Shown here piece by piece: positions 16,966 to 49,459 of a DNA stretch of 64,000 nucleotides (position 1 is the stretch's first letter; each line of letters opens with the position of its first letter). The translations under genes and the position numbers were made by a program. Below the pieces are notes generated by a model, which did no database searches, was not told the origin of the DNA, and saw only the letters and a program-made list of their open reading frames with translations. This DNA comes from Lutibacter profundi (GTDB lineage: Bacteria > Bacteroidota > Bacteroidia > Flavobacteriales > Flavobacteriaceae): assembly GCF_001543325.1 (NCBI RefSeq), contig NZ_CP013355.1, forward strand, positions 2,817,001-2,881,000, given 5' to 3'.

Positions 16966-17001
16966 AAAATTCTAGTTTATATAATTGTCTATATTGTGTT
17001 G

Positions 17002-17044
17002 TAAAATTAATTAAATATTTTCAATTTTTGTATGATTAAAGTCA
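17002..17044 (-). promoter_or_regulatory. iorA promoter with TGAT-N4-GTCA activator dyad
   Basis: Dyad TGATTAAAGTCA at 17033-17044. The -7 box on the minus strand is TAATTTTA at 17002-17009 (one mismatch to TAnnTTTG). Centre-to-centre spacing is exactly 33 bp, placing the dyad near -41 from a start at about 16998 and giving a ~33-nt leader before iorA. Same architecture as the cytochrome promoters. Confidence 0.7.
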
Positions 17045-17201
17045 TACATATAACACGTAATATATTGACAAACAGAATATTATATCAGCAATAGAATATG
17101 TAAAAAATTATAGATTAGAAAGGTGTTTAAACTTTTTTTGTAGTAAATTAATATTAAAAGTAATAAGTTTTTAAGAATTTGTTATTTGAGAAGTTTTGAG
17201 C

Positions 17202-17753
17202 TTAATTGTTGTCCCAATTATTTTTATTTCTAATATTTTTGTATAATTTAATTCCTAGCATTAATAATATAGAAACACTAACAATACCAATAACTCCAAA
17301 AATCCAACCTAATGAATTTTTGAGTATCACTAAAAAAACACAAGCAAATAAAATAATTGTAGCAACTTCATTCCAAATTCTTAAGGCAAATGAAGAGTAT
17401 TTTAAATATCCTTTTTCAATTTGATTGTACATAATTTGACAAGTCCAGTGGTAGGCAAAAAGTAAAGCAACAAACCCTAATTTAATGAGCATCCAGTTAG
17501 TTTGTAACCATGCAGGTTGTAAAATTAATAACCAAATGGCAAAGCCTGTAGCCAAAATAGCAGAAGGCCATGTTATAATATACCAAAGCCTTTTTATCAT
17601 TAACTTATATTGCTTTAATAATATATTTTTTTCTATTTCAGGTTTTTCTTCAGCTTCTTTATAATAAATAAATAATCTAATAATATAGAATAAACCGGCA
17701 AACCAAGTTGTAATAAAAATGATGTGAAGTGATTTTATGTATAAATATGTCAT
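17202..17753 (-). CDS. hemJ: Protoporphyrinogen oxidase HemJ
   Basis: UPF0093/CopD-like membrane protein of 183 residues with four to five membrane helices. IKSLHIIFITTWFAGLFY holds the conserved histidine near residue 10, and NWMLIKLGFVALLFAYH the conserved lysine near residue 91, both needed in characterised HemJ. It converts protoporphyrinogen IX to protoporphyrin IX, the step not otherwise encoded here, so it completes the neighbouring haem pathway. Confidence 0.88.
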   Translation of the reverse strand: MTYLYIKSLHIIFITTWFAGLFYIIRLFIYYKEAEEKPEIEKNILLKQYKLMIKRLWYIITWPSAILATGFAIWLLILQPAWLQTNWMLIKLGFVALLFAYHWTCQIMYNQIEKGYLKYSSFALRIWNEVATIILFACVFLVILKNSLGWIFGVIGIVSVSILLMLGIKLYKNIRNKNNWDNN

Positions 17754-17870
17754 AATTTATTAGGAAAGATATTTAAAGTTCAAAAATACCAATAATTAAG
17801 ATAAAATAATGCTACGGGTTCAATTTTATAAAAATAGCGTATATTATAGAATCTAACTAAAATTATAACA

Positions 17871-17878
17871 TAACTTTG
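17871..17878 (+). promoter_or_regulatory. -7 box TAACTTTG of the MFS gene
   Basis: TAnnTTTG match 37 bp before the ATG at 17916. No dyad or clear -33 element at the expected distance. Confidence 0.45.
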
Positions 17879-17915
17879 CAACGTCAACGAGGGAATAACA
17901 TATTTTAGAAAAGAT

Positions 17916-19103
17916 ATGAAATATATTTCGCGTACTGTTTGGGTTTTATCGCTTGTTAGTTTGTTTACTGATACGGCAAGTGAAATGTTGTATCCAGTAA
18001 TGCCAATTTATTTAAAATCTATTGGTTTTTCAATTGTACTTATAGGAATTCTTGAAGGTTTGGCTGAAGCAGTTGCTGGGTTAAGTAAAGGTTATTTTGG
18101 TAAGCTGTCAGATCAATCGGCTAGGAGAGTCCCTTTTGTTCAAATTGGTTACACTTTTAGCGCAATTTCAAAACCTATGATGGCTATTTTTGTGTATCCA
18201 CTTTGGATTTTCTTTGCAAGAACTTTAGATCGTTTTGGTAAAGGTATAAGAACCGGAGCCAGAGATGCAATTCTTTCAGATGAAGCTACGCTAAAAACCA
18301 AAGGGAAAATATTTGGGTTTCATAGATCTATGGATACTTTAGGAGCAGTTTTTGGACCGTTGTTTGCATTACTTTATTTATATTTCTATCCAAATAATTA
18401 TAAAACACTATTTTACATAGCGTTTATTCCTGGTATTTTAGCTGTGATTTCAACCTCTTTTCTCAAAGAAAAGAAAACGAAACTTCATAAAATAAAAAAA
18501 GCAGTATCTTTTTTTTCATTTCTAAACTATTGGAAGGAAAGTCCGGTAGTTTACAGAAAAGTTGTGATAGGGCTTTTATTTTTTACACTATTTAACAGTT
18601 CAGATGTGTTTTTGTTGTTAAAAGCAAAGCAAGCTGGTTTAAGTGATACGCAGGTTATAGGTGTTTATATCTTTTATAATTTAATTTATGCATTAAGTGC
18701 ATTTCCGGCAGGAATTATAGCTGACAAAATTGGTTTAAAAAAGATGTTTATAATAGGTCTTGTATTTTTTGCAGTTGTTTATTTAGGAATGGGATTTAGT
18801 ACAAATCTATACATTATTATGGGATTGTTTTTGCTATATGGCATCTACGCGTCTGCAACAGAAGGTATTTCAAAAGCTTGGATTAGTAATATTACTTCAA
18901 AAAAAGATACTGCTACTGCAATTGGTACTTATGCTGGATTTCAAAGTATTTTTACAATGTTAGCTAGTTCTTTTGCCGGACTTATTTGGTATAAATTTGG
19001 AGCAAATACATCTTTTTTTGTAACCAGTTTTGCAACAAGTATAGTTATAATTTATTTTATTTTTTTAAGAGAAATTAAAAGTAAAGGCTCAATATTAAAT
19101 TAA
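17916..19103 (+). CDS. MFS transporter
   Basis: 395 residues with 12 predicted membrane helices in two halves. The MFS loop 2-3 motif appears as GYFGKLSDQSARRVPF near residue 60 and its second-half copy as GIIADKIGLKKMF near residue 268. The substrate is unknown. Its position beside hemH and hemJ permits, but does not show, a role with tetrapyrroles or metals. The last 4 bp overlap the end of the convergent hemH. Confidence 0.85.
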   Translation: MKYISRTVWVLSLVSLFTDTASEMLYPVMPIYLKSIGFSIVLIGILEGLAEAVAGLSKGYFGKLSDQSARRVPFVQIGYTFSAISKPMMAIFVYPLWIFFARTLDRFGKGIRTGARDAILSDEATLKTKGKIFGFHRSMDTLGAVFGPLFALLYLYFYPNNYKTLFYIAFIPGILAVISTSFLKEKKTKLHKIKKAVSFFSFLNYWKESPVVYRKVVIGLLFFTLFNSSDVFLLLKAKQAGLSDTQVIGVYIFYNLIYALSAFPAGIIADKIGLKKMFIIGLVFFAVVYLGMGFSTNLYIIMGLFLLYGIYASATEGISKAWISNITSKKDTATAIGTYAGFQSIFTMLASSFAGLIWYKFGANTSFFVTSFATSIVIIYFIFLREIKSKGSILN

Positions 19104-20119: not shown

Positions 20120-20125
20120 TAATAT

Positions 20126-21019: not shown

Positions 21020-21105
21020 AGGTTGTTTTTGTTAAAAAAGAGCATTTGTTGTCTGTGTAAAAGTAATGAATAAAAGTTAATACATAAAAGATTATTAATA
21101 ATTAA

Positions 21106-21149
21106 TGATATTTGTCATATTAATTAATCCTTTATACAGTGTAAGTTTA
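21106..21149 (+). promoter_or_regulatory. Activator dyad and -7 box between araC and hemA
   Basis: Dyad TGATATTTGTCA at 21106-21117 and TAAGTTTA (one mismatch to TAnnTTTG) at 21142-21149, centres 34 bp apart, one more than in the other promoters. This would give hemA a ~140-nt leader. No fitting -7 box was found toward araC. Confidence 0.5.
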
Positions 21150-32339: not shown

Positions 32340-32372
32340 GGATTTTAATTTATTTGTTAAATTTAACAGTAA

Positions 32373-32451
32373 TGTAACAAAAGTAACATTTAAACTCTTC
32401 ATTTATATTGACAATTATCACGATTTTAAATCTTTTTTTTGTATAAATTTA
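32373..32451. promoter_or_regulatory. Divergent ccsBA / nrfJ-like promoter with one central activator dyad
   Basis: Dyad TGACAATTATCA at 32409-32420. Toward ccsBA, a perfect -7 box TACTTTTG (minus, 32378-32385) lies with centres 33 bp apart. Toward the NrfJ-like gene, TAAATTTA (32444-32451, one mismatch) is also 33 bp away, so one site can activate both directions. A second dyad, TGTAACAAAAGTAACA (32373-32388), covers the ccsBA -7 box, a position suited to repression. Confidence 0.75.
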
Positions 32452-34713: not shown

Positions 34714-34735
34714 TAGATGAAAGGATTAAATTAGA

Positions 34736-34931
34736 TAGAGGTCAGTAGATAACTACATCTAAATTTGAAATGGTAAAACACTGAATATAAAAAGTGTAAT
34801 GCAAAATAATTTGTCTGTTCGAGCGCAGTCGAGAACTATATCACACATAAATAGGTCTCGACTGCGCTCGACCTGACACAAACAAATAGAATTTATTAAA
34901 TTAATCGTATGAAACTATCTACTGACCTCTA
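34736..34931. repeat. 196-bp nested palindromic element
   Basis: Perfect 16-bp outer arms TAGAGGTCAGTAGATA (34736-34751) and TATCTACTGACCTCTA (34916-34931) enclose a second inverted repeat with 16-bp arms TCGAGCGCAGTCGAGA (34819-34834) and its complement (34856-34871). It fills the gap upstream of the five-haem gene. No coding potential, no promoter dyad and no target duplication were recognised. Confidence 0.85.
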
Positions 34932-34978
34932 AAATTAGATATTTAATATAATAACTCAATTAAGTGTTTTGTTGTAAA

Positions 34979-36049: not shown

Positions 36050-36073
36050 TTGAATTCGTTTTTATTAATATTT

Positions 36074-38053
36074 TTAAAATTTTCTTGATAAGCGGATTGT
36101 AAACCTGTTAAAATCCATTTTCTCATTAAACAATTTGCTCTTATATAATTCAACTCCAGTTGATAAAAATAATTGACGAATACGAGTTGTAAATGTTAAC
36201 CTGCTGGTTAATAAGTTTAAGTCAACACCTTCACCTTCTTGTTTAATATAACTTCCTTCTATATTGAGTTTTGTTTTTTGGTTGATATTGTAGGAAATAT
36301 TTCCTGAAATATTGGAGTATTTTTGTTTAATTCCTTCTTCAACAATCATTTGATAATCTCGTACATCTCCATTAAATGTGAAAAATAATTTTTCTTTTAT
36401 GTTACCTTGTAAAATTAAATAGTACTTTGTAAGTCTATATGGTATTATAGTGCTTTTATAATTGTCTTTTTCAATTCCTCCACTAATAAAATTAAAATTA
36501 AAACGAGTTCCATATACATTTTGATTAAAATAATCGAGTGTTAAAAAAGCGATGTTGACAGGATTAACAAAATCTTGGTTAGCTGATTTGTAATAAAAAG
36601 TGATCTTATTTCTAAATAAAGAAACAGATGCATTAAAGTAATTAATAACAGCTCTGTATTTATATGAACTAGGTTGTATTGCTATATAATTAATATAAAC
36701 AATTTCGTTATTTGCTATTTGGCCTCCTGGTATACGTTGAATTTCTAAGAGTTCATTTCTTTTAATTAATAAATAGTCAAAATTTAATCTATATATAATT
36801 GTTCCTGAAGCATCATTTACTTCAACTGTGGAGGCATTAATATTTTGATTTTTTAATAATACTATTCGATTATCAGAAAGTGTTTGTTCTTCTCTTTCAA
36901 TAGCAAAAAACAAGTCATCACTTACTCTTTCTTGTTGATTTGTGTTTAAACTATAATTTAAAGATAATGTACCTTTTAAAGGTGTTTTTTTTGTATAATT
37001 AATATTTAACCCTTTTCTGTTTATTATTTCTTTATATTGTTTATCACTAATATTGTTATATTCAAAAGATATATTTGTCCTCAAACTTTTATACAATTGG
37101 TGAGATAGTGTACTTCTTATATCGTGTTGTTTTAAATTTTGAATACCTCCTTTTATATCAAAAAAGTTATAGTTGCCAGCGTAGTTAAATTTATAAGGAA
37201 GTTTAAAGAAGAGATTTTCAGATATTTCAAATCGTTTGTAATTAAAATTGCCTTGTTGGTTGTAGTTTGAGACTCTAGAATTGAAATTATAGTTCTTTTT
37301 TGAATCTAAGAAAATACGGTTGTTCATACTCCATATAGTAATATCGTTTTTTATGAAGGTATTCACTAAATCGCTCTCTGAAACAGAAAAAGTAGTATTG
37401 TACGTATATTTATTGTGAGAATAAACAATTTGATTAAAATCATTAGCTCCAATAGATTTTTCAGATCTCATTTCTAAATTATTATGCTCTGTAATAAAAC
37501 TCCTATCTGTTTGTAACTCTATCTGTTCTCCCTTACCTTTATTATATGAAATTTTAATAGGAATATATTTATTAGTATATGAAAATACACTACCATAATT
37601 TCTGTAGTTTGATTTTAAATTTGTTAAATTTTCTCTATTGTTATATCCTTCATTTATATTCATAAATACATTTAAGTTTAATGAATTTTGTTTAAATATA
37701 TAAGCTCTTACATTTAATTTTTTAAGCGTATTTATTTCATTTCGGTCAGGGCTTACTAGAGATAAATATTGTCCTGTTTCTGGGCTATACCCAACATCGA
37801 GGTCTAATGATAAAAAATTGGGATGCCAAAAATAACTTTGAGAATTTAAAAACAATCCTCCCGATAAAAACGAACTTTGTAAACGTTCATTTACATTGCT
37901 TCTAGTTGTTTTTTGATCCCAAAAGAAACTGTTTAAATTTAGTTCACCATTTAATGACGTTAGTTTCCAAAATCTAGTTTCTATTTGTGAGCTTTGAGAA
38001 AAACTACAAATTGTAAATAAAAATATAAAATATAATAAACTTAATTTTTTCAT
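36074..38053 (-). CDS. Large outer-membrane beta-barrel, candidate cytochrome conduit porin
   Basis: 659 residues. A signal peptide ends near CSFSQSSQ. The rest is alternating polar/hydrophobic strands rich in Asn, Tyr and Phe, ending FTIRLSRKF with the terminal Phe of outer-membrane barrels. No TonB plug or CxxC was seen, and no clear similarity to MtrB/PioB by eye. It lies between the 11-haem and 9-haem cytochromes, the order known for porin-cytochrome complexes. The conduit role is inferred from context only. Confidence 0.72.
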   Translation of the reverse strand: MKKLSLLYFIFLFTICSFSQSSQIETRFWKLTSLNGELNLNSFFWDQKTTRSNVNERLQSSFLSGGLFLNSQSYFWHPNFLSLDLDVGYSPETGQYLSLVSPDRNEINTLKKLNVRAYIFKQNSLNLNVFMNINEGYNNRENLTNLKSNYRNYGSVFSYTNKYIPIKISYNKGKGEQIELQTDRSFITEHNNLEMRSEKSIGANDFNQIVYSHNKYTYNTTFSVSESDLVNTFIKNDITIWSMNNRIFLDSKKNYNFNSRVSNYNQQGNFNYKRFEISENLFFKLPYKFNYAGNYNFFDIKGGIQNLKQHDIRSTLSHQLYKSLRTNISFEYNNISDKQYKEIINRKGLNINYTKKTPLKGTLSLNYSLNTNQQERVSDDLFFAIEREEQTLSDNRIVLLKNQNINASTVEVNDASGTIIYRLNFDYLLIKRNELLEIQRIPGGQIANNEIVYINYIAIQPSSYKYRAVINYFNASVSLFRNKITFYYKSANQDFVNPVNIAFLTLDYFNQNVYGTRFNFNFISGGIEKDNYKSTIIPYRLTKYYLILQGNIKEKLFFTFNGDVRDYQMIVEEGIKQKYSNISGNISYNINQKTKLNIEGSYIKQEGEGVDLNLLTSRLTFTTRIRQLFLSTGVELYKSKLFNEKMDFNRFTIRLSRKF

Positions 38054-38060
38054 AAACTAG

Positions 38061-38912
38061 TTATTGCTTATTTAAAAGAAATTTATCATTTTTTCCTCCG
38101 TGTGGATTGTGACATTCAATACATTTGTTATTTTTAATATCTATATGATATTCCGTTTTTGTAATATCTATAGAATTATGGCAGCTCAAGCATAAATTAT
38201 CTCCAGTATTTATTAAAAGTTTTGGAGCTTTGTTAGTATGCGTTCCATGACACTGGAAACAGTTTCCTGAATCTACAGGACCATGTAAAAATTGGTATTC
38301 TTTTTTATAATTGTCGTGGCATTTGTAACAGCTCTCAGGCTGAAGACTCATTCTATTATTTCCTCCATGTGGGTTGTGACATTCAATACAACTTGTTTTT
38401 TTAATATCCTTATGTATTATGTTTTCTGAAACTTGTTTTGAATTATGACAACTAAGACAGAGTTTTTTATCAGATTCTACCAACAAATTTTTTAATTTTG
38501 ATTGGTGTGGCGCATGGCACTGTATGCAATCATTTGAGGCAACAGGCCCGTGTAAAATCTCAAATTTCTGACTAAAATCTGTATGGCATTGATTGCATAA
38601 CTCTGGTATAGGAAGTTTAGTTTTTCCCATATCATCTCTGTTGTGACAACTAGCACAATCTCTCTCTCTGTACGGAGGGTGAAGATTGAATTCACTTTTT
38701 TTAACAATTGACACCAAAGTTTTTTTAGTATCAATATCAATGGTTTGTAAGGAATCGTTAATAGTAGTAAATTCAGTTTTATAAGGTGAAGGAACTCCAT
38801 CAAACAAAAAAGATTTAACGCCATAACTTAATTCGGGAGAACAAGTCCAAAAGAATGAAATAGCTACTATAAATAATAGATAATTAATAAATTTGTATTT
38901 GCCTAAATTCAT
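38061..38912 (-). CDS. Nine-haem lipoprotein cytochrome c
   Basis: 283 residues. Lipobox FFWTC at residues 20-24. Nine CxxCH motifs (CASCH, CNQCH, CIQCH, CLSCH, CIECH, CYKCH, CFQCH, CLSCH, CIECH), arranged as near-repeats of ~60 residues with CxECHNPHGG. The segment KSFLFDGVPSP after the signal is typical of anchored multihaem cytochromes. No catalytic CxxCK. Immediately upstream of the barrel (7-bp gap), it is the candidate outer-membrane lipoprotein partner. Orientation, surface or periplasmic, cannot be told. Confidence 0.9.
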   Translation of the reverse strand: MNLGKYKFINYLLFIVAISFFWTCSPELSYGVKSFLFDGVPSPYKTEFTTINDSLQTIDIDTKKTLVSIVKKSEFNLHPPYRERDCASCHNRDDMGKTKLPIPELCNQCHTDFSQKFEILHGPVASNDCIQCHAPHQSKLKNLLVESDKKLCLSCHNSKQVSENIIHKDIKKTSCIECHNPHGGNNRMSLQPESCYKCHDNYKKEYQFLHGPVDSGNCFQCHGTHTNKAPKLLINTGDNLCLSCHNSIDITKTEYHIDIKNNKCIECHNPHGGKNDKFLLNKQ

Positions 38913-39014
38913 ACTTTTTTAGTCTGAAATAATTAAAAATTCAGTATTGAAAATTATTGAATCATCTAAAATAATTATCAGTTTTTCAACTTTTAATGGG
39001 ATATATTAGACTTA

Positions 39015-40088
39015 TTACTCTTTCTTTTTGGGTGTTATACGACCATAAATACTCACTTTATCTGGCCCATATTGGTTTGCAACAAAAATTAAATATTTTA
39101 AATCAAATTTCTGGTCAACATATTTTTCAAAATATTTTAAATTATCATAATCAATCATAACTTTTGTTGGTAGCCACATATCTCCTTTGGATTTGTAATG
39201 GCCTCCAAAAAAGAGTAATAACTCTCCTTTCTTGTTAAAAATTTGCACATTCTCAAAGCTCGCATCTACAACATATATATTTTCTTCTTTATCTACGGCA
39301 ATGCCTTTAGGGCGAACTAAATCACCAATATTTTTTCCGTATTTAGAAATTGTTTTTAAATACACTCCTTTAAGAGTAAAAATTTTAATATCACCACTAC
39401 CCATATCACTTACAAAAACCTTATTATTTGTTATAGTTAGGTTGGCAGGTTTGTATAAATAATTAGCATCTCCACTTTCTGATTTTGGGAAATAGTACTC
39501 AAATTTGTATGTTTCTTTGTTGTAAACGTTTATTCTGTTGTTGCCAGAGTCTGCAACAAATATATTTTGGCTATTTACAAACACATCGGAGGGTTTTATG
39601 TTTTTATCTTTTCCGAATGAAGTTATATAGGTTCCATCACCATCGAAAACAAAGACTTTTTGTAGTGCAATATCTGTAATATATAGTTTGTTATTTTTAT
39701 CAACGTAGCAGTTGAGAGGCAGTTTTAACCGATATTGACCTTCGGGAATAAAATAATTAAATTTATTTGTCTCAAAATCAATAATTTCTAGTCCTCCACC
39801 TAAAGAAACATCACAAATATATAATTTTCCATTACGCATAAATAAACCATAAGGTTTATAAATTGGGAGGGTTTGATTTTCACCAACAATAGATTTAGTA
39901 AAAGCAGATTGTTTTTTTGCAATATCTAATGAGCTACTAATACTTGTTAAATATTGAATTCTAGGAGTTGCAGGTGCCGCCGGATATGTTACTTTTTTTG
40001 CAGTACTAGCTTTATTAATATGTGGAGAACACGAGTTGAAAATAAGTGTTATACTTAAAAGATAAAAAAAATATATTTTGAAGTCCAT
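39015..40088 (-). CDS. NHL-repeat beta-propeller lipoprotein
   Basis: 357 residues. Lipobox IFNSC followed by SPHINK. At least five NHL-type repeats, for example PYGLFMRNGKLYICDV, PSDVFVNSQNIFVADSGN and PKGIAVDKEENIYVVDAS. It is probably a scaffold or binding protein for the cytochromes. First gene of the propeller / 9-haem / barrel / 11-haem operon, with its own activator dyad at 40165. Confidence 0.85.
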   Translation of the reverse strand: MDFKIYFFYLLSITLIFNSCSPHINKASTAKKVTYPAAPATPRIQYLTSISSSLDIAKKQSAFTKSIVGENQTLPIYKPYGLFMRNGKLYICDVSLGGGLEIIDFETNKFNYFIPEGQYRLKLPLNCYVDKNNKLYITDIALQKVFVFDGDGTYITSFGKDKNIKPSDVFVNSQNIFVADSGNNRINVYNKETYKFEYYFPKSESGDANYLYKPANLTITNNKVFVSDMGSGDIKIFTLKGVYLKTISKYGKNIGDLVRPKGIAVDKEENIYVVDASFENVQIFNKKGELLLFFGGHYKSKGDMWLPTKVMIDYDNLKYFEKYVDQKFDLKYLIFVANQYGPDKVSIYGRITPKKKE

Positions 40089-40133
40089 TTTTTAATTAGT
40101 TTTATATATTATTCTAATAGCAGTGTTTCTAGG

Positions 40134-40176
40134 TGAATTTAGGTATAATAATGGTGTTATACTATGATTAAAATCA
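40134..40176 (-). promoter_or_regulatory. Promoter of the propeller-barrel operon with activator dyad
   Basis: Dyad TGATTAAAATCA at 40165-40176. At exactly 33 bp centre-to-centre lies TAAATTCA on the minus strand (40134-40141), with two mismatches to TAnnTTTG. The predicted start near 40130 leaves a ~42-nt leader. The rest of the 40089-40347 gap shows nothing else convincing. Confidence 0.65.
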
Positions 40177-40347
40177 GTTTTTAGGTATGAGTAAAAGGAG
40201 TGTGTAGAGTTTAATTTTTAAATAATATTTCAATAGAAATAACATTGTTAACATTATTTTTTGAGAGGTTTTTGAAAATTAATTACAATAAATAGAGGGC
40301 TAATTACAGCCCCCTATTTGTTTACTTAAAATTTTAGATTGTAGATT

Positions 40348-40965
40348 CTATTTGTTATGGCAAGTTAAACAAAGTGCACTACTTGCATTTGATTTAACCA
40401 ATAATTTTGCGACACCAGAGCCATTGTGGACGTCATGGCAAGAAGAACATTGTACTTTTCCTGCAAGTAATAAATCTGCATTAATAGTACCCCCAACTCC
40501 TGAACTAGTAGTAATAGGATCAAACAATCCGCCATCTGTTGTGGCTAATGCAGCATCATACGTAAATGAAACAGGATGTTCACTACTTAAGTCTGTTCCT
40601 ACAAGATCATTTCCGCTAATGAATTTTGTACCACCTGTTTGTCCACCAAAGTTATCCATAGCAACTGTACCGTCATGGCAACTCAAGCATAATTTTGAAG
40701 AACCATCTGGTTGACCAGTAGTTGCATCAAGCGATGCACTGGTATACAATGTAAAAGTAGTTGTAGTTACTTCGTGGTTCCATAATGGAGCGGTTAAACC
40801 TGTTACAGCACCGTGAGGAGTATGACATACTACACAAACTTCCCCTCCAGGATTCCATGTTTTTCCTGAGAAATCATGTGCAGATCCAGCAATGTTTTGT
40901 CCAAAACTTACAATACTCATAAATAAGGACAAACCTAACGTTAACAATATTTTTGTTGTTTTCAT
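40348..40965 (-). CDS. Tetrahaem cytochrome c
   Basis: 205 residues. A signal peptide ends near IVSFGQNIAG. Four CxxCH motifs (CVVCH, CLSCH, CSSCH, CLTCH). It is the stand-alone form of a module also seen in the genes at 34028 and 41207: CHTPHG, PLWNHE, GQPDGSSKLCLSCHDGT, SSEHPVSFTYDAAL, CSSCHDVH. Single-gene unit with its own promoter carrying both dyad types. Probably a periplasmic electron shuttle. Confidence 0.9.
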   Translation of the reverse strand: MKTTKILLTLGLSLFMSIVSFGQNIAGSAHDFSGKTWNPGGEVCVVCHTPHGAVTGLTAPLWNHEVTTTTFTLYTSASLDATTGQPDGSSKLCLSCHDGTVAMDNFGGQTGGTKFISGNDLVGTDLSSEHPVSFTYDAALATTDGGLFDPITTSSGVGGTINADLLLAGKVQCSSCHDVHNGSGVAKLLVKSNASSALCLTCHNK

Positions 40966-41014
40966 AATAATAGTTTTAATATATTTTAGTAAAAATTATG
41001 TTTAATATCTAGAA

Positions 41015-41078
41015 CAAATTTAAGGGTAATAATGAGTAAAAAAGATGATTTTTATCACATTATGTAACATTAGTTACA
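41015..41078 (-). promoter_or_regulatory. Tetrahaem cytochrome promoter with two dyads
   Basis: Perfect -7 box TAAATTTG on the minus strand (41015-41022). Activator dyad TGATTTTTATCA at 41046-41057, centres 33 bp apart. A second palindrome, TGTAACATTAGTTACA (6-bp arms), at 41063-41078 lies 19 bp further upstream. The leader is about 46 nt. Confidence 0.8.
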
Positions 41079-41206
41079 GTTTTATTTATTTTTTTTACTT
41101 AAAAAGTATCGTCATGTTAATTCAAACTTATTTAAGTTACTTAAAATATAGAAGCTAAAAGGTTTTTGCTTATTTTAAAATAAATAATGAGAAATATTCT
41201 ATAATA

Positions 41207-42886
41207 TTAATATGATTCAGGTCTATGATTTTCACCATGACATCTTAAATAGCAACGACCTCTATTTGTTCCAGTATCTTCATATTTTAACCTACCATTA
41301 CTAGATGGTGTTACTACATCTGTCCTAAAATTGATAAGGTTAGAGTTATTGGTGCTATTACCCTGTGTACTACTAATACCATGTGCATCATGACATACAC
41401 TACAAGGCGTGTTCTCCTCAACAATATGTAACCTATGCTCTTTAAAAGTATTTATATCATTTATAATATTATTTCTGTTGTGACAACTATAACAAAGCGC
41501 ATACGCTTGAGCAGACTCTACAGTGTAGTCTGCAGTTTCATATTGTAATTTTAAAATTTGAGGATATATTGAACCGTGTGGTCCTGCAGGGCCATTTGAA
41601 TTGTTGCTAGCATGACAGCTAGTACAGTACAATACGGTACTTGCAGTATTAGGAGAGATAAGGTTACTTGTTATCTCCGAGTTGTTTCTAGGACCTGCAA
41701 TGGGGTGGAAAGAAGGATTTGAAGGTTCAAATTCTAATCTAACATTGTTTTGAACAATTAGCCTAGGAAGTGATGGTGATGGTGACCAAGAGTTACCGGC
41801 ATGACATTTGTAGCATATCTCATAGGTGTTTGTAGCTGGATTTACAGGGTTTCCCGCTTGATTAATACCACTTACACCTTTGTTGAAACCATTTACAGAA
41901 GGGGCAGTTGCAATAGTTGAATTTGAAGCGTGAGGATTATGGCAATCTTGACATTCTACATGTTTAGTTGTTACAGAAGTTGATTCTGTAGGGTCATGAA
42001 CTATTGAGTAATTATAGACATCGTGTTTATAAGTTTTAGAAAGTTCAGCCTGTATGTTTTTGTTAGCAATATTTCCGTTATGGCAATCAAGACAATTATT
42101 TTCTTCGAGGTTTGATTTTAGTAATCGTAGCTTACCATCTGCATTGTGAGGATTGTGACAATTAGCACATGCGTTTTGAGAAACCGTAGCGTAAGCTGAC
42201 TCTAGATGAGCCCAAGGATTAGTTCCAGATCCATTCCAAGTTTTAGTAGAAGTTTTATGAGTACTATTATTCCAATAAGTTCGGTCGTGACACAGAAAAC
42301 ACAAATCAGAAAATTCAATAGAAGCTCTAAGGAATTTAGGATTGATTTCTTTATGTGGGTCATGGCAAGATGTACATTGTAATTTAGAGTTATAATCAAG
42401 TATTGCCATGGAATTTAAAGGAGGTGTTTTCAGCTGTCCATCTACTGCCGCTAATGCTGCATCGTAGGTAAAAGAAATAGGGTGGTCGTTAGATAAATCA
42501 GTAGTAAGGTTACTTTTTGAAGGCATTACACCAGTCATATCTATAGGGGTGGTTCTGCTAATAACTTCACCTAAAGCAATTGTTCCATCATGACAAGAAA
42601 GACAAAGAATTGAACTTCCGTCAGGCTGTCCGGGTACAGCATCTAAAGTAGAACTATTGTATAAGATGTAGGTTGTTCCAGAGCTATTTTTATTCCATAG
42701 AGGAGCTCTTGGGCTACTGTTATGTGGTGTGTGACAAAAAATACAAATTTCAGACTCTGATGTAGCTTTTATTGTTCCAGTACTACTAACAGATAAATTG
42801 TGTTTGGTAGTTATTATAGATTGTGCATTTAAAAATGCATAAAAACTGAATAAAATGTATAATATTAAAATAGAAATATTTTTCAT
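41207..42886 (-). CDS. Large multihaem cytochrome c (11 CxxCH plus one CX3CH)
   Basis: 559 residues. A signal peptide ends near FLNAQSII. The N-terminal ~190 residues are the tetrahaem-type module (CIFCHTPH, PLWNKN, CLSCHDGT, HPISFTYDAAL, CTSCHDPH). Further motifs are CFLCH, CANCH, CLDCH, CQDCH, CYKCH, CTSCH, CYSCH and CSVCH. The chain ends GRCYLRCHGENHRPESY, where a CX3CH could bind a twelfth haem. No CxxCK. Cotranscribed 2 bp behind the split propeller gene. Perhaps secreted. Confidence 0.9.
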   Translation of the reverse strand: MKNISILILYILFSFYAFLNAQSIITTKHNLSVSSTGTIKATSESEICIFCHTPHNSSPRAPLWNKNSSGTTYILYNSSTLDAVPGQPDGSSILCLSCHDGTIALGEVISRTTPIDMTGVMPSKSNLTTDLSNDHPISFTYDAALAAVDGQLKTPPLNSMAILDYNSKLQCTSCHDPHKEINPKFLRASIEFSDLCFLCHDRTYWNNSTHKTSTKTWNGSGTNPWAHLESAYATVSQNACANCHNPHNADGKLRLLKSNLEENNCLDCHNGNIANKNIQAELSKTYKHDVYNYSIVHDPTESTSVTTKHVECQDCHNPHASNSTIATAPSVNGFNKGVSGINQAGNPVNPATNTYEICYKCHAGNSWSPSPSLPRLIVQNNVRLEFEPSNPSFHPIAGPRNNSEITSNLISPNTASTVLYCTSCHASNNSNGPAGPHGSIYPQILKLQYETADYTVESAQAYALCYSCHNRNNIINDINTFKEHRLHIVEENTPCSVCHDAHGISSTQGNSTNNSNLINFRTDVVTPSSNGRLKYEDTGTNRGRCYLRCHGENHRPESY

Positions 42887-42888
42887 TT

Positions 42889-43901
42889 TTATCTTTTAAG
42901 GAGTTTAAATATTTGAATTCTAGAGTTGTAGCTGTCAGTAATATAAATAAAATCTTTATTGTCTATATATATACCTGATGGCATCCAAAATTCACCTTGT
43001 TTTCTACCTTGTTTGCCAAACTGGTATAAAAAATTACCTGAAATATCAAAAACCTGTACTGTATGGAATAAGGCGTCACTAATATAAATATTTCCATGTG
43101 AATCTGTTGCAATGCCTTTTGGTCGCGAAAAATAACCAGTAGCATTTCCAACTTCACCAAAAACGGAAATTACTTTACCATTTTTATCAAATACCTGAAC
43201 TCTAAAATTCATGGCATCAATAATATAGGCGTTACCAAGTTGATCAATCCAAATTGATGTAGGGAAATTAAATTCTCCCGGTTTGGTACCTCTTTTACCT
43301 ATTGTTTTAATTAATTTACCTTGCTCATTTAGTATTGAAATTTTATGAGCTTTAGTTTCAATAACCCAAATTTTATTTGAAACCTTAGAGTAAGCTATTC
43401 CTGTTGGCTGTTCAAGTAAGAGAGAATCGTTAAAGATAGTTAATGTTTTCTGCTTCTCATTCATACGATATATGTTGTTTAAGCGAGAATCAGTAAAAAG
43501 TATTTCATTTGAAGGAAGTTTGCATAAACTCACTAAAGAAGGAAATTTTTCTTTTTCTTTTTTAATATTTTAGGAACTCTTAATTTATTGTCATTTATAT
43601 TGAAAATGGTACCAGTTCCTTGATCTAAAATTATAAAGCTTGTAGAATCTAAAGCAATAATAGCAAGTGGCTTTGTAATTTTAGGAATGTTTTTTCTTCC
43701 AAATAAAAAAGTAAAAAGCCAATTTTTTTTTGAAGAGTCCTTCTTATTAGTTGCTTTTGGAAATTGGCTAACCCATTTAACTTGATACCTTTCTGTTGTG
43801 TTGTTTTTTATTGAAGTTATTTTTTGTGCATTACTTTGAAAATAAAGGATAAATAAAATAAAACTTATTACAAATTTAATATTTCTAACACGGGGGTTCA
43901 T
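42889..43901 (-). pseudogene. NHL-repeat propeller gene split by a -1 shift in a poly-A tract
   Basis: Frame 1 runs from ATG 43901 (signal peptide ending QSNAQK) to TAG at 43533. Frame 2 carries the propeller repeats (PTGIAYSKVSNKIWVIETK, PTSIWIDQLGNAYIIDA, PKGIATDSHGNIYISDA) to 42889. Before the stop, frame 1 reads A AAA AAG (43557-43563), a classical slippery heptamer. A -1 slip there gives a continuous ~337-residue protein like that at 39015. A GTG overlapping the stop (TAGTG) could instead restart frame 2. It may be a recoded gene, a broken gene or a sequencing error. Confidence 0.75.
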
Positions 43902-43923
43902 AATTATAATATTTATAAAATAA

Positions 43924-43992
43924 AGTAACTATTGTTACACAGCATCTCACAAATTTATAGATTAATATTTTATTAAGAAGTGATTTATATCA
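43924..43992 (-). promoter_or_regulatory. Promoter of the split propeller / 12-haem operon
   Basis: Perfect -7 box TAAATTTG (minus, 43950-43957). Activator dyad TGATTTATATCA at 43981-43992, centres 33 bp apart. The palindrome GTAAC-TATT-GTTAC (43925-43938) lies just downstream of the predicted start near 43946, a place suited to repression. Confidence 0.8.
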
Positions 43993-44030
43993 TGTTTTTG
44001 GATGAGATAGTAGTTGTTGATATTACATAT

Positions 44031-44170
44031 AAAAAGAGGCTGTCTGAAAAGCAATTATACTTGTCATTTTGAACAAAGTGAAAAATCTCAACATCTTGAT
44101 ATATAAGTGTTTAATTTCAAGGAGATTCTTCATTTACATTCAGAATGACACTTTTTAGACAGCCTCTTTA
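44031..44170. repeat. Nested palindromic repeat, copy 2
   Basis: Core 44036-44166 matches copy 1 (29015-29145) at 128 of 131 positions. Outer arms GAGGCTGTCTGAAAAG and CTTTTTAGACAGCCTC; inner arms begin TGTCATTTTGA and end AGAATGACA. It separates the NrfCD/cytochrome operon end (44198) from the next promoter (43992) and probably ends the upstream transcript. Confidence 0.9.
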
Positions 44171-44197
44171 AGATAAATATTTATTTAAAATATTTAA

Positions 44198-44596
44198 TTA
44201 CTCGGCTAAAGTTCTCATATAGTTAATAATTAACCATCTATCTTCATCGTCTGGCAATTTTTTAGTAAACTCGGGCATATCATCTCTACCAATAGTTGTT
44301 TTATAGAATAAAGCACCATCACTTTGTGCTTGGAATTCTTCAGAAGAAAAATCTCCTAATTCACCATCAAGATCCTCAGCTTTTGGCCCATCTCCATAAC
44401 CTTCGACACCATGGCAAGATTTACAATGCTTGTTATATAATGATTTTCCAATTGCTGTATCTGTACCTGCATCAACAGGATTTTTCATTGTCTCGTATTT
44501 TTCAGGAACTTTCCATTCTTCTTGCGTTAATGATGTAAAAGAGTATAATACAAATGTTACAACTCCAATAATTGTTAAAATTTTTACTGTTTTCAT
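44198..44596 (-). CDS. Class I monohaem cytochrome c
   Basis: 132 residues. An N-terminal signal or anchor (IIGVVTFVLYSFTS) precedes a single haem motif CKSCHG near residue 60, with the distal methionine probably in GRDDMPEF near residue 106. Typical small electron carrier. It lies last in the Tat / 4Fe-4S / NrfD / Ig-like operon and is the natural link from the quinol module to the multihaem proteins. Confidence 0.92.
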   Translation of the reverse strand: MKTVKILTIIGVVTFVLYSFTSLTQEEWKVPEKYETMKNPVDAGTDTAIGKSLYNKHCKSCHGVEGYGDGPKAEDLDGELGDFSSEEFQAQSDGALFYKTTIGRDDMPEFTKKLPDDEDRWLIINYMRTLAE

Positions 44597-44600
44597 GTTT

Positions 44601-45478
44601 TTAGATTTTAGATTTAGAAATTTTAAATAGATTAGTTATTAAATATATAATTAAACCCCATATTCCAAATATTAATAAATTGGGAAATATAAGTAAGAAT
44701 AAAGGTGTTTTATTTCTAGGTGACCACATTGTTCTTTCGTTAAAAGTTGATTCATCAACTATTGGTACTCCAATTGGCGCATTAACAATTGCCTTTACGG
44801 TTCCAAAATCATCACTTTCATTAAGAACTACTTCAATAGCTATATTCCCATCCATACCAGGAATTCCATTATCAATAGGTATAAAGATGGCGCCATTTTC
44901 ATTGGTATAGTTAAATTCATTTCCAATTTTTAAAGGTTTAAATAACCTTTGTACTTGAATATTTAATGATTCACCTGTTATAGGAGTGTTTGTAGCTGTA
45001 TTTATTAGAGTTGCTGATATGTAATTGACACTATCTTTTGTAATAAGTTTGGCTCTAATGTCAACATCTTTAAAAACAATATTTTTTTTAGCTTTCTTAA
45101 AAGTATCATTTCCTTTAAACGATATTAGAAGGTTATACGTACCTGTTGAATCTGGTTTAATAGCATTCAAGCTTTTAAATATAAACTTACTTTCACCATC
45201 AATATTGGTAGTGGTTTCTCCAACTTTAATTTTTTGTTATGTACCTTGTTGTAAATAGTTAGATTAATGTTTGAAACTTTAATATTTTTTCTTTTAACTC
45301 TAGCAGTTACTTTAATGTTTAAATAGATTTCTCCATCCATTATCTTTATATACTGAGCCTTTAATCTGACTTTTACTTTTTTTACTTTTTGAGCATATAC
45401 ATCTTGTGAACCAGTAGAAAGTAGTAACATACTTAAAATAGCAAGAAAAATAAAGCGAAATTTTAATTGATTTTTCAT
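44601..45478 (-). pseudogene. Ig/transthyretin-like membrane-anchored protein, frameshifted
   Basis: Frame 1 from ATG 45478 has a signal peptide (ending DVYAQKVKK) and ~50 residues of beta-rich sequence. The natural continuation (VGETTTNIDGESKF, FKSLNAIKPDSTGTYNL) is in another frame and runs to 44601, ending in a C-terminal membrane helix (LLIFPNLLIFGIWGLIIYL). One base is missing in the A6 run at 45230-45235 (minus strand). Restored length is ~291 residues. Its start overlaps the stop of nrfD by one base. Function unknown; perhaps an assembly scaffold for the quinol module. Confidence 0.7.
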
Positions 45479-46794
45479 TATTCAGCGTTTTTAGTATTTT
45501 TTAATAATTCTTCTTGCTCATCAGCTGTTCTTTGAATAGGTATTATAGGTAAATAGCGTACCAATAGTGTAATTATTAATAGTGCCATTGCCAATGTTGC
45601 AATAGTAATTAGCCATTCGTGTATACTTGGAAAATAATGGTGCCAAGATTCGGGCACACCTTGTATAGGTAAAAATGGATGTAATAAGGTTGGCGTAACA
45701 ATAAGATACCGTTTCCACCAAGAAGCAATAACTACAACTAAACCAATTATAAACATTGGAAGTGGTTTTCTTCCTTTTTTAAATAATAAAACTATAATAG
45801 GTATTATTAAACCACCTATAATTACAAACCAAAACAAAGGCGCATACTGTCCAGAAATTAGAGTGTTTAAATGTATTTCTTCTTCTTTTGAGGCTGTAAA
45901 TGTGGGTATTAAGTACTCATTGATATTAAAATACAAATAAGTTAAACAAGCCAATACTAAAAATTTTCCAAGCTTGTCAAAGTGATTATCAGTAATAAAA
46001 TGCTCTAATTTATAGGCTCTTCTAACAACGTAAATAACAGTTATAAGTGCACCTACACCAGCAACAAAAGCACCTGAAATAAAATAAGCTCCCATGTTAG
46101 TGCTATCCCAACCAATTCTATAAGTTGTTGAGAATAGCCATGCATCAATAGTTTGTAAAATTAATCCAACAGGTATAATCATTAAAGCAATAATTTGGAT
46201 AGATTTTGTTTGAATTGCTTTTTGAGCTTTACTGCCTGTCCAGTTTAAAGATAGTTTTCCATACCATTTACTTAATTTGGGACTTTTATCTTTAAAATAC
46301 TCTTTAAGTATTTTAAAATCAGGAAGTAATGGAAAGTATAATAATAACAAACTTAAAACAATGTATGTTGGAATTATTATAACATCCCAAGTAATAGGTG
46401 ACTGCAACCTTGCGTGAATGAACAAATTTAGGAGTCTATCAGGTCTGGCCATATCAATCATAATGGTTATTCCTGCCATTACAATTGCAGCCAAAGAAAT
46501 AATTTCAGCAATTCTAACGACTGGAGTTCTCCAATTATTTTTAGTTAATCTTAAAACGGCAACAGTAACTGAACCTACAAAACTTGTAGCTACAAAAAAA
46601 ACAAAATTTGAAATGTAAATTCCCCATAATGTATAATCTCTCATATTAGTTACAACTTGTCCTTTAATAAGTTGATCTATATAAGCAATAATTCCAATAA
46701 TAATAATAACGATTAATGAAATTGTCCAAATAGTACCTAGCTTTCCAAATTTTTTGGGAGCCAAATCATTTAATAGTTTATCGTATTTTTTCAT
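45478..46794 (-). CDS. NrfD/PsrC-family quinol-interacting membrane protein
   Basis: 438 residues with about ten membrane helices, N-terminal charged cytoplasmic stretch, conserved polar residues within helices (DMARPDRLLN, SPITWDVIII, WDSTNMGAYF). Family members exchange electrons and sometimes protons with menaquinol, together with an NrfC/PsrB-like 4Fe-4S partner, which is the gene 2 bp upstream. No haem motifs. No molybdopterin subunit is encoded nearby, so the module probably hands electrons to cytochromes. Confidence 0.88.
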   Translation of the reverse strand: MKKYDKLLNDLAPKKFGKLGTIWTISLIVIIIIGIIAYIDQLIKGQVVTNMRDYTLWGIYISNFVFFVATSFVGSVTVAVLRLTKNNWRTPVVRIAEIISLAAIVMAGITIMIDMARPDRLLNLFIHARLQSPITWDVIIIPTYIVLSLLLLYFPLLPDFKILKEYFKDKSPKLSKWYGKLSLNWTGSKAQKAIQTKSIQIIALMIIPVGLILQTIDAWLFSTTYRIGWDSTNMGAYFISGAFVAGVGALITVIYVVRRAYKLEHFITDNHFDKLGKFLVLACLTYLYFNINEYLIPTFTASKEEEIHLNTLISGQYAPLFWFVIIGGLIIPIIVLLFKKGRKPLPMFIIGLVVVIASWWKRYLIVTPTLLHPFLPIQGVPESWHHYFPSIHEWLITIATLAMALLIITLLVRYLPIIPIQRTADEQEELLKNTKNAE

Positions 46795-46796
46795 AA

Positions 46797-47774
46797 TTAT
46801 TTGGATTTTTCAACAGATTGAAATTCTGTATAATTCTCTAAGCCTTTTTCAAAATCAACTAATCTATCAACAGGAGGTAGGTAATAAACACTAGGTTCGG
46901 TGCCTAAGCCTTCCATAATTCTATATCCAGATTTATCTTTTAGTAGTTTACTAAATCTTAATGTTTCATCACCGTTTGTAACGGTATCTTCATATTTGTC
47001 TCCAAAATAGAAAACTCCGTTTGGACAAGCAGTAACACAATGGGGCAGTTTTCCTTCTTGTATTGCATGAGGACAAAAGTCACATTTGTCTACAGTTCCT
47101 TTTATACTTGGAACTCCAGCATGTTCTGGTGAAGATTTCTGGTGGTCATGCATTTTAAGATCTTTAGCTAAAGTGATTTCACCCTGATTGGGGTCACTCC
47201 AATTAAAGACTCTTGTTGAATATGGGCAGGCAGCCATACAGAAGCGACAGCCTATACAGCGTTTATTGTCAATTAAAACTAAACCATCTCTTCTTTTAAA
47301 AGTTGCATCTACGGGGCAAACAGTTACACATGCAGGGTGGTCACAATGTTGGCAGGTAGTTGGCATCCAGTAAGGGGCTGTATCTTTGGATTCTTGCATT
47401 TTATAAACTTTAAGCCAAGCATTATCACCTGTTATATAGTGATATTTATTACAGGCACTTTGACATTTTAAAGCATTTTTACATTTTGCCAAATCTACAA
47501 CCATAACAAATTTTCGATTTGGCATTCCTTCTCTTACATTGTACTCTTTGTGCTTTTTAGAATTATCCATTTCCATAACTTCTGAAGAATCTACTTGAAT
47601 TATAGTTCCTTCAGTGGTCATTAATTCTATTTTTCCAGTTGAATTACTAGTTGGTTTTGCACTTAATTTTGAGGCAAGTTTTGTTAAACCAATTCCACCA
47701 ATAGCTGTTAAAAGACTTAATTTTATTCCTTTATCAATAAATTTACGTCTTGAGTTAGTTTTGTTATTTTTCAT
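46797..47774 (-). CDS. Tat-exported 4Fe-4S protein (NrfC/DmsB type)
   Basis: 325 residues. Twin-arginine signal NSRRKFIDKG at the N-terminus. Cluster motifs: CQHCDHPACVTVCP, CIGCRFCMAACP and CDFC...CVTACP. The first cluster has an unusual spacing, CKNALKCQSAC, instead of CxxCxxC. It electrically connects NrfD with periplasmic acceptors. Flanked by the 89-residue Tat protein (2 bp upstream) and nrfD (2 bp downstream). Confidence 0.9.
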   Translation of the reverse strand: MKNNKTNSRRKFIDKGIKLSLLTAIGGIGLTKLASKLSAKPTSNSTGKIELMTTEGTIIQVDSSEVMEMDNSKKHKEYNVREGMPNRKFVMVVDLAKCKNALKCQSACNKYHYITGDNAWLKVYKMQESKDTAPYWMPTTCQHCDHPACVTVCPVDATFKRRDGLVLIDNKRCIGCRFCMAACPYSTRVFNWSDPNQGEITLAKDLKMHDHQKSSPEHAGVPSIKGTVDKCDFCPHAIQEGKLPHCVTACPNGVFYFGDKYEDTVTNGDETLRFSKLLKDKSGYRIMEGLGTEPSVYYLPPVDRLVDFEKGLENYTEFQSVEKSK

Positions 47775-47776
47775 AA

Positions 47777-48046
47777 TTAGAGTTTTCTGCCTAGCCAGTT
47801 TAGAAACGATTTATTTGAAATATTTTGCTTAATAATTTTAGCTTTTTTTAAAGAGCTAACCTTAATTTTTACAATTGTTCCATCAGGTTTTAATAAAGTT
47901 TGATATTTTTCATCATCTTCAGAAATAGTTATTTTATCAGATACTGATTTTCCAAACCCTAGAAAAGGTAGTAGTAAAGTACTTCCTAAAATAGGTAAAA
48001 TGCCTCTTCTTGAAATTTGTCTTTTTTTTCGTAACTCTTGTTTCAT
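47777..48046 (-). CDS. Small Tat-signal protein of the NrfCD operon
   Basis: 89 residues. Twin-arginine motif ISRRGILPILG followed by a hydrophobic stretch, then a charged region (YQTLLKPDGTIVKIKVSSL) and a Trp-containing C-terminus (NKSFLNWLGRKL). No cofactor motif. Its segment LKPDGTIVKI parallels TTEGTIIQVDSSEV in the next protein, suggesting a shared N-terminal module without the clusters. First gene of the operon. Function unknown; I know of no characterised homologue. Confidence 0.65.
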   Translation of the reverse strand: MKQELRKKRQISRRGILPILGSTLLLPFLGFGKSVSDKITISEDDEKYQTLLKPDGTIVKIKVSSLKKAKIIKQNISNKSFLNWLGRKL

Positions 48047-48131
48047 CTTGAAATGTTATTTAATGCTAAAACGAATAGCTAATTATTGTCCTAAAAGATA
48101 TTTATTTAGGTATTTAATTCACATTCATTTA

Positions 48132-48174
48132 CGAATTTAAGAACTATTAAATCTTAAATTTATGATTTAAATCA
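48132..48174 (-). promoter_or_regulatory. Promoter of the Tat / 4Fe-4S / NrfD operon
   Basis: Perfect dyad TGATTTAAATCA (48163-48174) and the -7 box TAAATTCG on the minus strand (48132-48139, one mismatch), centres 33 bp apart. The leader is about 80 nt, longer than in the sister operons. Confidence 0.75.
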
Positions 48175-48257
48175 TTATTTAAAAATATATAAATAATTGA
48201 TAATCAATAATATAAACCTTATTTAGAATTGTTTTAATTAATTTTTATAAAATTTTA

Positions 48258-48295
48258 AGCAACTTTTGTTACAAATAGAAGTAATTTTTGTTACA
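48258..48295. promoter_or_regulatory. Tandem GTAAC-N4-GTTAC-like dyads
   Basis: AGCAACTTTTGTTACA (48258-48273) and AGTAATTTTTGTTACA (48280-48295), each one mismatch from GTAAC-N4-GTTAC, with centres 22 bp apart (two helical turns). They lie ~100-120 bp upstream of the activator dyad of the NrfCD operon. Confidence 0.55.
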
Positions 48296-48491
48296 AACAA
48301 ATTTTAAGATTAGTGTATGTGCCAGAAATTTGTAAGAAAATATTATTTAACGTATTAAAAATACTAATGATTTTATGTGCATATAATAACATTATGGCAT
48401 GATAAAGTAATTTAAACAATAAGTAAGACAAAATATAAAGATTAATTAATATGTTGCCTTACTGTTGAGTTTCGTTTATCTATTTTATAGT

Positions 48492-49412
48492 TTAAAAATT
48501 GTAGTTCCTCGTAATATTAAATCCAATTAAAAATTGACCTCCACCTTTTCCAAAAGGAGAATCTGTTCCAAATCCGTCATTTTGGTTAAACATATAATTT
48601 TGTTGTGGTACAATACCATTGTAGTTTGTTGCAAAAATTTGAAATGCGTGAGCAGAAGTAGAAAATTCAACGCCAAAGCTAATACCAGGAGAAGGGTTAT
48701 CTAACATAAAACTAGTTAAAGGTTGGCTATAATCTATCATTATTGAAGTTTGGTCGCTTATTTTATAGCGCCCTCCAAATGCAATTGCCACCATATCATT
48801 TCTCATGGTATTTTTTACCACGTTATAATGCGAAACACTTGGAGCAATTTGTAAAGAAAGTTTTGGGTTAAACCTACGAGCTATAATTAATTGATTGAAA
48901 TTAGAATATCTATCTGATAAATACCTGAAATTCTCTTTTTTGCGTGCGTCTATTGTGAAATTACCATAGTAAGTAACACTTACGGGCATTTTGTTTGATC
49001 GTGTTTGTTGTAATAAGGCAACTTTCCAATTAAATTCTTGTAAACGATTAAATTTAGTAGTTCCAAAACCAATAGTAACTCTATCATGTACAGCATAGGA
49101 AAGTCCAATTCTAATATTTGATGGAGCACAAATACCTATTAAGTCATTTGCTCCGCCATTGTTCATTAATCCAAATCTGTGTTGTATCTACTGCAGGCGT
49201 ACCCGTTGTCGAATTTAATAAAGGTCTGGCTTCATTCCAAACCTCATCAATATCTCCATCAAATATTGGTACTGTTGAGAATTTTTTCACTAATAATTCA
49301 TCAGTAATAGATTCAATTCCTTTTCAACTACAGGGGCTAGAGGTGCATTACCATGTGTATAATTTACTAATGTAATTAGGGCTATTACAGCTAGTGCTAA
49401 ACTAAATTTTTG
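48492..49412 (-). pseudogene. Collapsed gene: secreted EB-dh-like N-terminus fused out of frame to a DUF5777 barrel
   Basis: The C-terminal frame (48492 to ~49180) encodes a DUF5777-type beta-barrel from HRFGLMNNGGANDL and APSNIRIGLSY to the end RNYNF. Upstream, a second frame reads VPIFDGDIDEVWNEARPLL, reminiscent of ethylbenzene-dehydrogenase-like haem-binding domains. A third reads a signal-peptide-like stretch (LKQKFSLALAVIALITLV) with no ATG. Shifts fall near 49165 and 49317. The normal N-terminal part of DUF5777 is missing, so an internal deletion is likely. The promoter dyad at 49448 is kept. Confidence 0.65.
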
Positions 49413-49416
49413 TTTT

Positions 49417-49459
49417 AAAATTTATAGTTATTATAAAAAGAATTATATGATTTAAGTCA
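49417..49459 (-). promoter_or_regulatory. Activator dyad and -7 box of the collapsed barrel gene
   Basis: Dyad TGATTTAAGTCA (49448-49459) and TAAATTTT on the minus strand (49417-49424, one mismatch), centres 33 bp apart. The predicted start (~49413) falls within the signal-peptide remnant, consistent with loss of the original leader and start codon. Confidence 0.6.

Follow-up and report, generated by a model that had tools for sequence, protein, structure and literature searches.

Which regulator reads the dyad TGAY-N4-RTCA that recurs ahead of haem and cytochrome genes in one stretch of the Lutibacter profundi chromosome, and how is that dyad placed relative to the promoters? The stretch, called the window here, is 64,000 nucleotides long (bases 2817001-2881000 of a single-contig 2.97-Mb genome). 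Counts across the genome, controls on spacing, and conservation give good support to a regulon of the FNR/CRP type with class II geometry. We consider it quite likely that an FNR-type activator binds the dyad at position -41.5 and activates at low oxygen, and that the FNR-like protein encoded beside the cbb3 oxidase (cco) genes acts as the main regulator.

A dyad and a -7 box at fixed spacing

The window contains ten copies of the dyad. An earlier note on this DNA listed eight of them as intergenic, and a simple gene caller agrees, since exactly those eight lie between genes and the two further ones, at 37431 and 47185, are genic. Distances from dyad to TAnnTTTG-like box, taken from centre to centre with the boxes scored over six consensus letters, are exactly 33 bp in seven promoters and in the remnant at 49448, and 34 bp at hemA (Table 1); the rigid geometry described earlier was thus recovered on remeasurement. 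Three of the eight 33-bp boxes have all six consensus letters, four have 5/6 and one has 4/6. By chance, about 0.2-0.3 dyads are expected in the intergenic part of the window (5.9 kb by the gene caller), where eight were found; the previous rough estimate was fewer than one.

The same geometry is found elsewhere in the genome. In an off-window sample of 1.16 Mb (58 stretches, each 20 kb long, out of 2.97 Mb in all), intergenic DNA holds 24 TGAY-RTCA dyads against 3.9-5.3 expected per 115 kb under Markov models, and 11 TGAT-ATCA dyads against 2.2-2.8, or 4-6 times expectation. When these 24 dyads are read in both directions, TAnnTT stands at 33 bp in 12 of the 48 dyad-orientations (P = 9e-10; background 0.024 per offset), and the neighbouring offsets of 32 and 34 bp have 5 and 4, giving one dominant peak at 33; boxes at 18 and 19 bp number 4 and 3. 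A class I placement was considered and rejected, as there is no clear off-window peak for it (distances of 53-56 bp have 9 boxes, where the background predicts about 4.5). Genome-wide, the strict composite TGATN4ATCA-N23-TANNTT occurs 25 times (4 in the window and 21 outside) against a single reversed match, and one of the 25 (L020) sits within a gene. The bare TGATN4ATCA is only mildly enriched (116 versus 88 for the reversed control, per strand), so the signal is carried by the spacing together with the intergenic position. Among the 24 other composites, 17 have a T after the dyad and 18 a G at -5, a letter that is not part of the pattern, and no -33 element was seen.

The composite TANNTTTG was also sought in 148 genomes of the order Flavobacteriales, with a reversed form and a form whose gap is 5 bp shorter (N18) as controls. 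The 33-bp form (N23) gives 190 matches, the reversed control 3, and the N18 control (28 bp) 18 matches in 17 genomes, four of these being near-identical copies in family f5. Every one of the 21 genomes of the window's own family contains the composite (102 matches versus 2 for the control). With the composite present in 66/148 genomes, the order gains a predicted low-oxygen regulator, its binding site and a promoter rule. Dyads arising by chance in AT-rich intergenic DNA would be an extremely improbable explanation: genic dyads are indeed common off-window (54 genic versus 24 intergenic TGAY-RTCA), but the spacing peak, the reversed and shifted controls and the conservation all contradict it.

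Class II activators bind at a site centred at -41.5. In Flavobacterium psychrophilum the sigma-A box TAnnTTTG is reported to lie at -12 to -5 (Guerin et al. 2021, PMC9723704); this position and the 33-bp distance together put the dyad centre at -41.5, so that the location near -41 given earlier can be made more precise. Judged by sequence and with predicted start positions, the dyad takes the place of the -35/-33 element. The same article reports induction of the cbb3 oxidase and of haem enzymes or genes under oxygen limitation, and FNR and CRP do not occur in its main text.

The FNR-like candidate and its cysteines

As the earlier note had it, the window contains no CRP/FNR gene; eight cyclic-nucleotide (cNMP)-binding regulators of this type are encoded elsewhere in the genome. 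The preferred candidate (Table 1) adjoins the genes for a metal P-type ATPase, ccoNO, ccoP and ccoG, has a CRP/FNR fold with a Crp-type helix-turn-helix, and is 77-85% identical to its counterparts at the six named loci that match best, of which four carry the title Lutibacter, one Gelidibacter and one Flavobacteriaceae bacterium. The grouping of genomes rests on lists of matches, ordered by E-value, to this protein and to the receiver-CRP (REC-CRP) fusions described below, with E <= 2e-47 as the threshold for an FNR orthologue. Outside f5, and among the matches listed, the composites track the orthologue, which is present in at least 43 genomes: 40 of those 43 have the composite, against 12 of the 86 remaining genomes.

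The cco locus itself shows two spacings. The ccoN promoter was represented by the region 2.2-3.3 kb upstream of fnr, where it lies in the loci read, and 77 named loci were long enough; 69 of them have a dyad there and 59 a box of at least 5/6 letters at exactly 33 bp, other boxes standing at 32 bp (6) and 34 bp (3). Of 80 named loci, 75 also have a dyad in the 400 bp ahead of fnr. Perfect boxes toward fnr stand at 19, 20 and 21 bp from 25, 22 and 8 of 78 dyads, respectively (55/78 in total); this would place the dyad around -28, on top of the promoter, an arrangement that reads as autorepression. The two conserved spacings give predictions of direction, 33 bp for on and about 20 bp for off. 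The fnr-side dyad was rejected as an activating site for the ccoI-like gene, since only 10 of the 78 dyads have a perfect box at 32-34 bp toward that gene.

In the proposed mechanism an FNR-type activator would bind the dyad, which stands at -41.5 in place of the -33 element and beside the sigma-A -7 box, and at low oxygen the bound dimer would recruit RNA polymerase through class II contacts. The main regulator would be the FNR-like protein beside the cco genes, with a probable cluster on C4, C7, C53 and C106, and the same site at about -28 of its own promoter would let it repress fnr. Where present, a REC-CRP fusion driven by a haem-PAS-like kinase would probably use the same sites.

The cysteines differ from the textbook set. 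The arrangement C-x2-C-x45-C is found in 30 of 30 order-wide FNR-like sequences, and C106 is kept in all 28 that were aligned. All four cysteines are present in 80 of 80 named loci, of which 77 pass the script and three keep the cysteines with Ser at the Pro that it requires; they were inspected in 36 of the 43 FNR-bearing genomes outside f5. The E. coli-type ligand arrangement C-x2-C-x5-C ... C is absent, the third-ligand position being Asn in the L. profundi protein. In a phmmer alignment to Aliivibrio fischeri FNR, C4, C7 and C106 face cysteines, the third ligand is unmatched and C53, which is on a beta-strand predicted by a good structure model (predicted local distance difference test 86.8 for the model), faces Ala. 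By their conservation the four cysteines could hold one cluster, and the protein probably carries a [4Fe-4S] cluster on C4, C7, C53 and C106.

A further survey of 20 loci gave 22 sequences, four of them from f5. Nine lack C53 and keep C4, C7 and C106 (L280, L282, L283, L284, L285, L287, L290b, L291 and L291b), and all nine have at least three N-terminal cysteines, some of which in L291b may precede the start. Nine others have C53, five of them together with a third N-terminal cysteine (L281, L286, L288, L289 and L290) and four (L292-L295) with two N-terminal cysteines, counted from the likely start codon; in the main clade two accompany C53. The distribution favours, short of proof, a replacement of the third ligand by C53. 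It suggests a route by which a third N-terminal cysteine may first have been joined by C53 and then lost, with f5 having lost all four. Nine f5 proteins (L159-L163, L296-L299) have cysteine at none of the four positions, some keeping one a position before C106, and retain the recognition helix GTATESAIR; the four positions went while the DNA-reading helix and many promoters were kept. Dyads are still found upstream of the f5 fnr gene in all four of L296-L299. The result is a testable cysteine map of a variant oxygen sensor.

Like E. coli and A. fischeri FNR, the protein has a CRP fold, an N-terminal CxxC, C106 aligned with the cysteine of VCEIP, E and R in its recognition helix and, in its presumed sites, a TGAT-N4-ATCA core and a class II placement at -41.5. 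Unlike them, it has Asn for the third ligand and C53 where A. fischeri FNR has Ala, and the outer TT/AA of the site is not conserved. It further differs from E. coli FNR in that it would act on a promoter with a -7 TAnnTTTG box, and in its score of 95.4 bits against the cut-off of 228 for NCBIfam Fnr (PRK11161.1). The best PDB match in both sequence and fold is the Porphyromonas gingivalis CRP-like protein 2GAU, which differs by phmmer in that C53 is matched by Tyr and C106 by Leu, and in that the alignment starts only after the N-terminal cysteine pair. Structures of FNR and CRP are among the subjects of PMC12937710. The MalR-type CRP homologues of Bacteroides also belong to the Bacteroidota CRP/FNR family; in PMC8510549 a Flavobacteriales homologue is classed as MalR, with a role in carbon sensing; the motif search there used a MalR matrix, and the portion available does not give that homologue's cysteine set. 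This homologue may be another paralogue. In titles and the beginnings of abstracts of the open-access literature, a coverage mostly outside subscription journals, we found no description of an FNR from flavobacteria, of such a cysteine pattern or of the rule of 33 bp.

Receiver fusions and the weighing of regulators

Two L. profundi genes (at loci L002 and L003) fuse a receiver to a CRP-like output. They are not LuxR-type FixJ regulators, their domains being Response_reg, cNMP_binding and HTH_Crp_2. Full-length fusions occur in at least 16 of the 148 genomes, and at 8 of 16 such loci a dyad and a box of at least 5/6 letters at 32-34 bp lie within 200 bp after the gene. The order at L002 is PAS histidine kinase, REC-CRP, composite and universal stress protein (usp) gene; kinase and fusion likewise adjoin a composite for usp in genome G039 and one for hsp20 in G128. 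At L003 the fusion adjoins a composite for hsp20, the promoter of the fusion gene has a composite, and no kinase was seen beside the gene. The L003 fusion (L003:1010-2073; G000:C1 about 439928-440991) breaks into two reading frames close to eight consecutive A, which may be a frameshift, slippage or an assembly error; the relative at L002 in the same genome is intact. Compared with the haem-PAS kinase of FixL-FixJ, the match is strong in G128 (FixL haem PAS, E 7e-29) and weak in the L. profundi kinase (DosP/FixL, 4e-10 to 1e-9). The recognition helices have E and R in common (GTATESAIR in the FNR-like protein, GIATESLIR and GIAKETLIR in the fusions), and use of common sites by the two proteins is plausible.

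Several observations weigh against the FNR-like protein as the main regulator. Its assignment is indirect because the genome has eight genes of this family. A box at exactly 33 bp is missing from 18 of the 77 ccoN loci, eight of which also lack the dyad, and the dyad of the L. profundi fnr gene is degenerate, with 2 mismatches, and 20 bp from a perfect box. The 24 L. profundi sites, when compared with TTGAT-N4-ATCAA (whose core is the search pattern itself), lack the outer TT/AA of E. coli FNR sites, with T at -48 in 4/24 and A at -35 in 1/24. Ser212, which we take to be a DNA contact of FNR, is not kept. Family f5 keeps composites (32, in 14 of 19 genomes) though its FNR has lost the four cysteine positions (9 genomes inspected), hemA in relatives departs from the 33-bp rule (see below), and G039 (6 composites) and G102 (1) have a REC-CRP fusion and no close FNR orthologue among the matches listed. 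Further clusters of boxes in the ccoN region (L200-L279) stand at 47 bp (11) and 56 bp (12), for which common descent may be the reason.

G039 speaks for the fusion instead being the main regulator, phosphorylated by the haem-PAS-like kinase, with the FNR-like protein governing only the cbb3 oxidase and itself, as do the composites that adjoin fusion and kinase, the composite in the L003-type promoter, and the FixL-like PAS of the kinase (strongly so in G128). We nevertheless judge this improbable: among the matches listed a full-length fusion is present in 16/148 genomes, eight same-family genomes with no fusion listed (G002, G030, G048, G056, G064, G114, G124 and G143) have 1-9 composites each, and the L003-type gene is frame-split. 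A milder alternative is that both proteins bind every site and that the output is their sum, as is the case for FnrN and FixK in rhizobia. It would fit the common E and R and the adjacency of both genes to the same type of composite, but many genomes have just one of the two among the matches listed, and we hold it to be possible rather than probable. The FNR-like protein thus stays the preferred main regulator. Our opinion is evenly divided on a fuller proposal in which the relocated third cysteine (C53, in the beta-roll and not the N-terminal loop) would hold the Flavobacteriales FNR cluster, and FNR and a haem-kinase-driven REC-CRP would read the same site, activating at -41.5 and repressing fnr at about -28.

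A close parallel is rhizobial FnrN/FixK-fixNOQP, in which, according to PMC7888657, a high-affinity cbb3 oxidase is under FNR-type control with a FixL-type second oxygen input. The difference is that receiver and CRP-type output are one protein here, and in rhizobia FixJ or FxkR is followed by FixK.

Genes of the regulon and of the window

Genes were assigned as the longest open reading frame (ORF) starting within 400 nt of each of the 25 sites; three sites have none, and some assignments are approximate. Family matches above or near cut-off identify sulfide:quinone reductase, a VorB-type 2-oxoacid oxidoreductase, transhydrogenase alpha, NuoB and menaquinone-dependent HemG, and weaker ones a persulfide-dioxygenase-like/rhodanese protein and a NorC-like cytochrome. 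Cytochrome cd1, a NorB-like COX1 protein adjoining NorC, Hsp20 and REC-CRP are further members, together with the propeller, multihaem and NrfCD operons of the window. The site-linked genes presumably also include those for a rhodanese, citrate synthase, a FadL-like barrel and a ResB/CcsB-like protein, which were named by us from their sequences. In the earlier description of a regulon of fermentation, haem and cytochrome operons, "fermentation" is too narrow because the wider set includes cbb3 oxidase, nitrite/NO reductase-like, sulfide oxidation, Complex I and haem synthesis genes. We note that the sulfide:quinone reductase (L009, G000:C1 about 12992) matches the NCBIfam type III selenoprotein subtype with 626 versus 525 bits.

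The inclusion of hemA stands in part. Its dyad and 34-bp box are as described before, but membership is weak because, among 29 hemA loci of the same family, an upstream dyad is present in 15 (that of L. profundi included) and a perfect box at 33 bp in L187 only. No box was found in the opposite direction from the hemA dyads, and hemA was rejected as a typical member. It may be under the same site without the standard geometry. In several genomes (L177-L188) a conserved stretch like AAAAACCACAAACGATATTAAAAGT follows the hemA dyad in the place of the box.

Table 1. Dyads of the window with their -7 boxes and genes (window numbering), and the gene of the candidate regulator (G000:C1 numbering)
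Feature	Position	Strand	-7 box	Gene and remarks
Dyad TGACTTTAATCA	17033..17044	-	TAATTTTA, 17002-17009	IOR-alpha-like gene (iorA), 15349-16965; predicted start ~16997
Dyad TGATATTTGTCA	21106..21117	+	TAAGTTTA, 21142-21149 (34 bp, 5/6 letters)	hemA; least certain promoter
Common dyad, ccsBA side	32409..32420	-	TACTTTTG, 32378-32385	ccsBA, 29157-32402; predicted start ~32373
Common dyad, other direction	32409..32420	+	TAAATTTA, 32444-32451	gene 32486-33211
Dyad TGATTTTAATCA	40165..40176	-	TAAATTCA, 40134-40141 (weakest 33-bp box, 4/6 letters)	NHL propeller, multihaem cytochromes and protein without Pfam match, 39015-40088, 38061-38912, 36074-38053, 34979-36049
Dyad TGATAAAAATCA	41046..41057	-	TAAATTTG, 41015-41022	multihaem cytochrome gene, 40348-40965
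Dyad TGATATAAATCA	43981..43992	-	TAAATTTG, 43950-43957	split propeller (43533-43901, 42889-43533) and multihaem cytochrome operon
Dyad TGATTTAAATCA	48163..48174	-	TAAATTCG, 48132-48139	NrfC/NrfD-like operon
Dyad TGACTTAAATCA	49448..49459	-	TAAATTTT, 49417-49424	DUF5777 gene with broken 5' frames
FNR-like protein gene	G000:C1:221914-222597	-		divergent from ccoI-like metal P-type ATPase gene and ccoNOPG

The product of iorA has IOR_alpha as its top NCBIfam match (545 bits, under the cut-off of 651). Given the start predicted for ccsBA, its translation is expected from a Met downstream of the first ATG of the ORF. The divergent gene, nrfJ-like in the earlier note, has no Pfam match. The dyad at 48163 probably reaches the NrfC/NrfD-like operon by way of a small ORF with a twin-Arg-like leader (judged by eye), and the Fe-S protein of this operon has DsrO as its top NCBIfam match, under cut-off.

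Positions 34028-47774 form an uncharacterised cluster that encodes multihaem CXXCH cytochromes, NHL propellers, a barrel-looking protein without Pfam match and an NrfCD-like membrane module. The cluster may serve to conduct electrons across the outer membrane, and it is here placed under likely oxygen control. Two genes of the cluster, the NHL propeller gene at 42889-43901 and a small-protein gene at 44601-45478, are each broken into a pair of frames that overlap or abut, and their junctions are not long homopolymers. The DUF5777 barrel gene (48492-49412) has several frame breaks in its 5' part, and the dyad and box ahead of it look intact.

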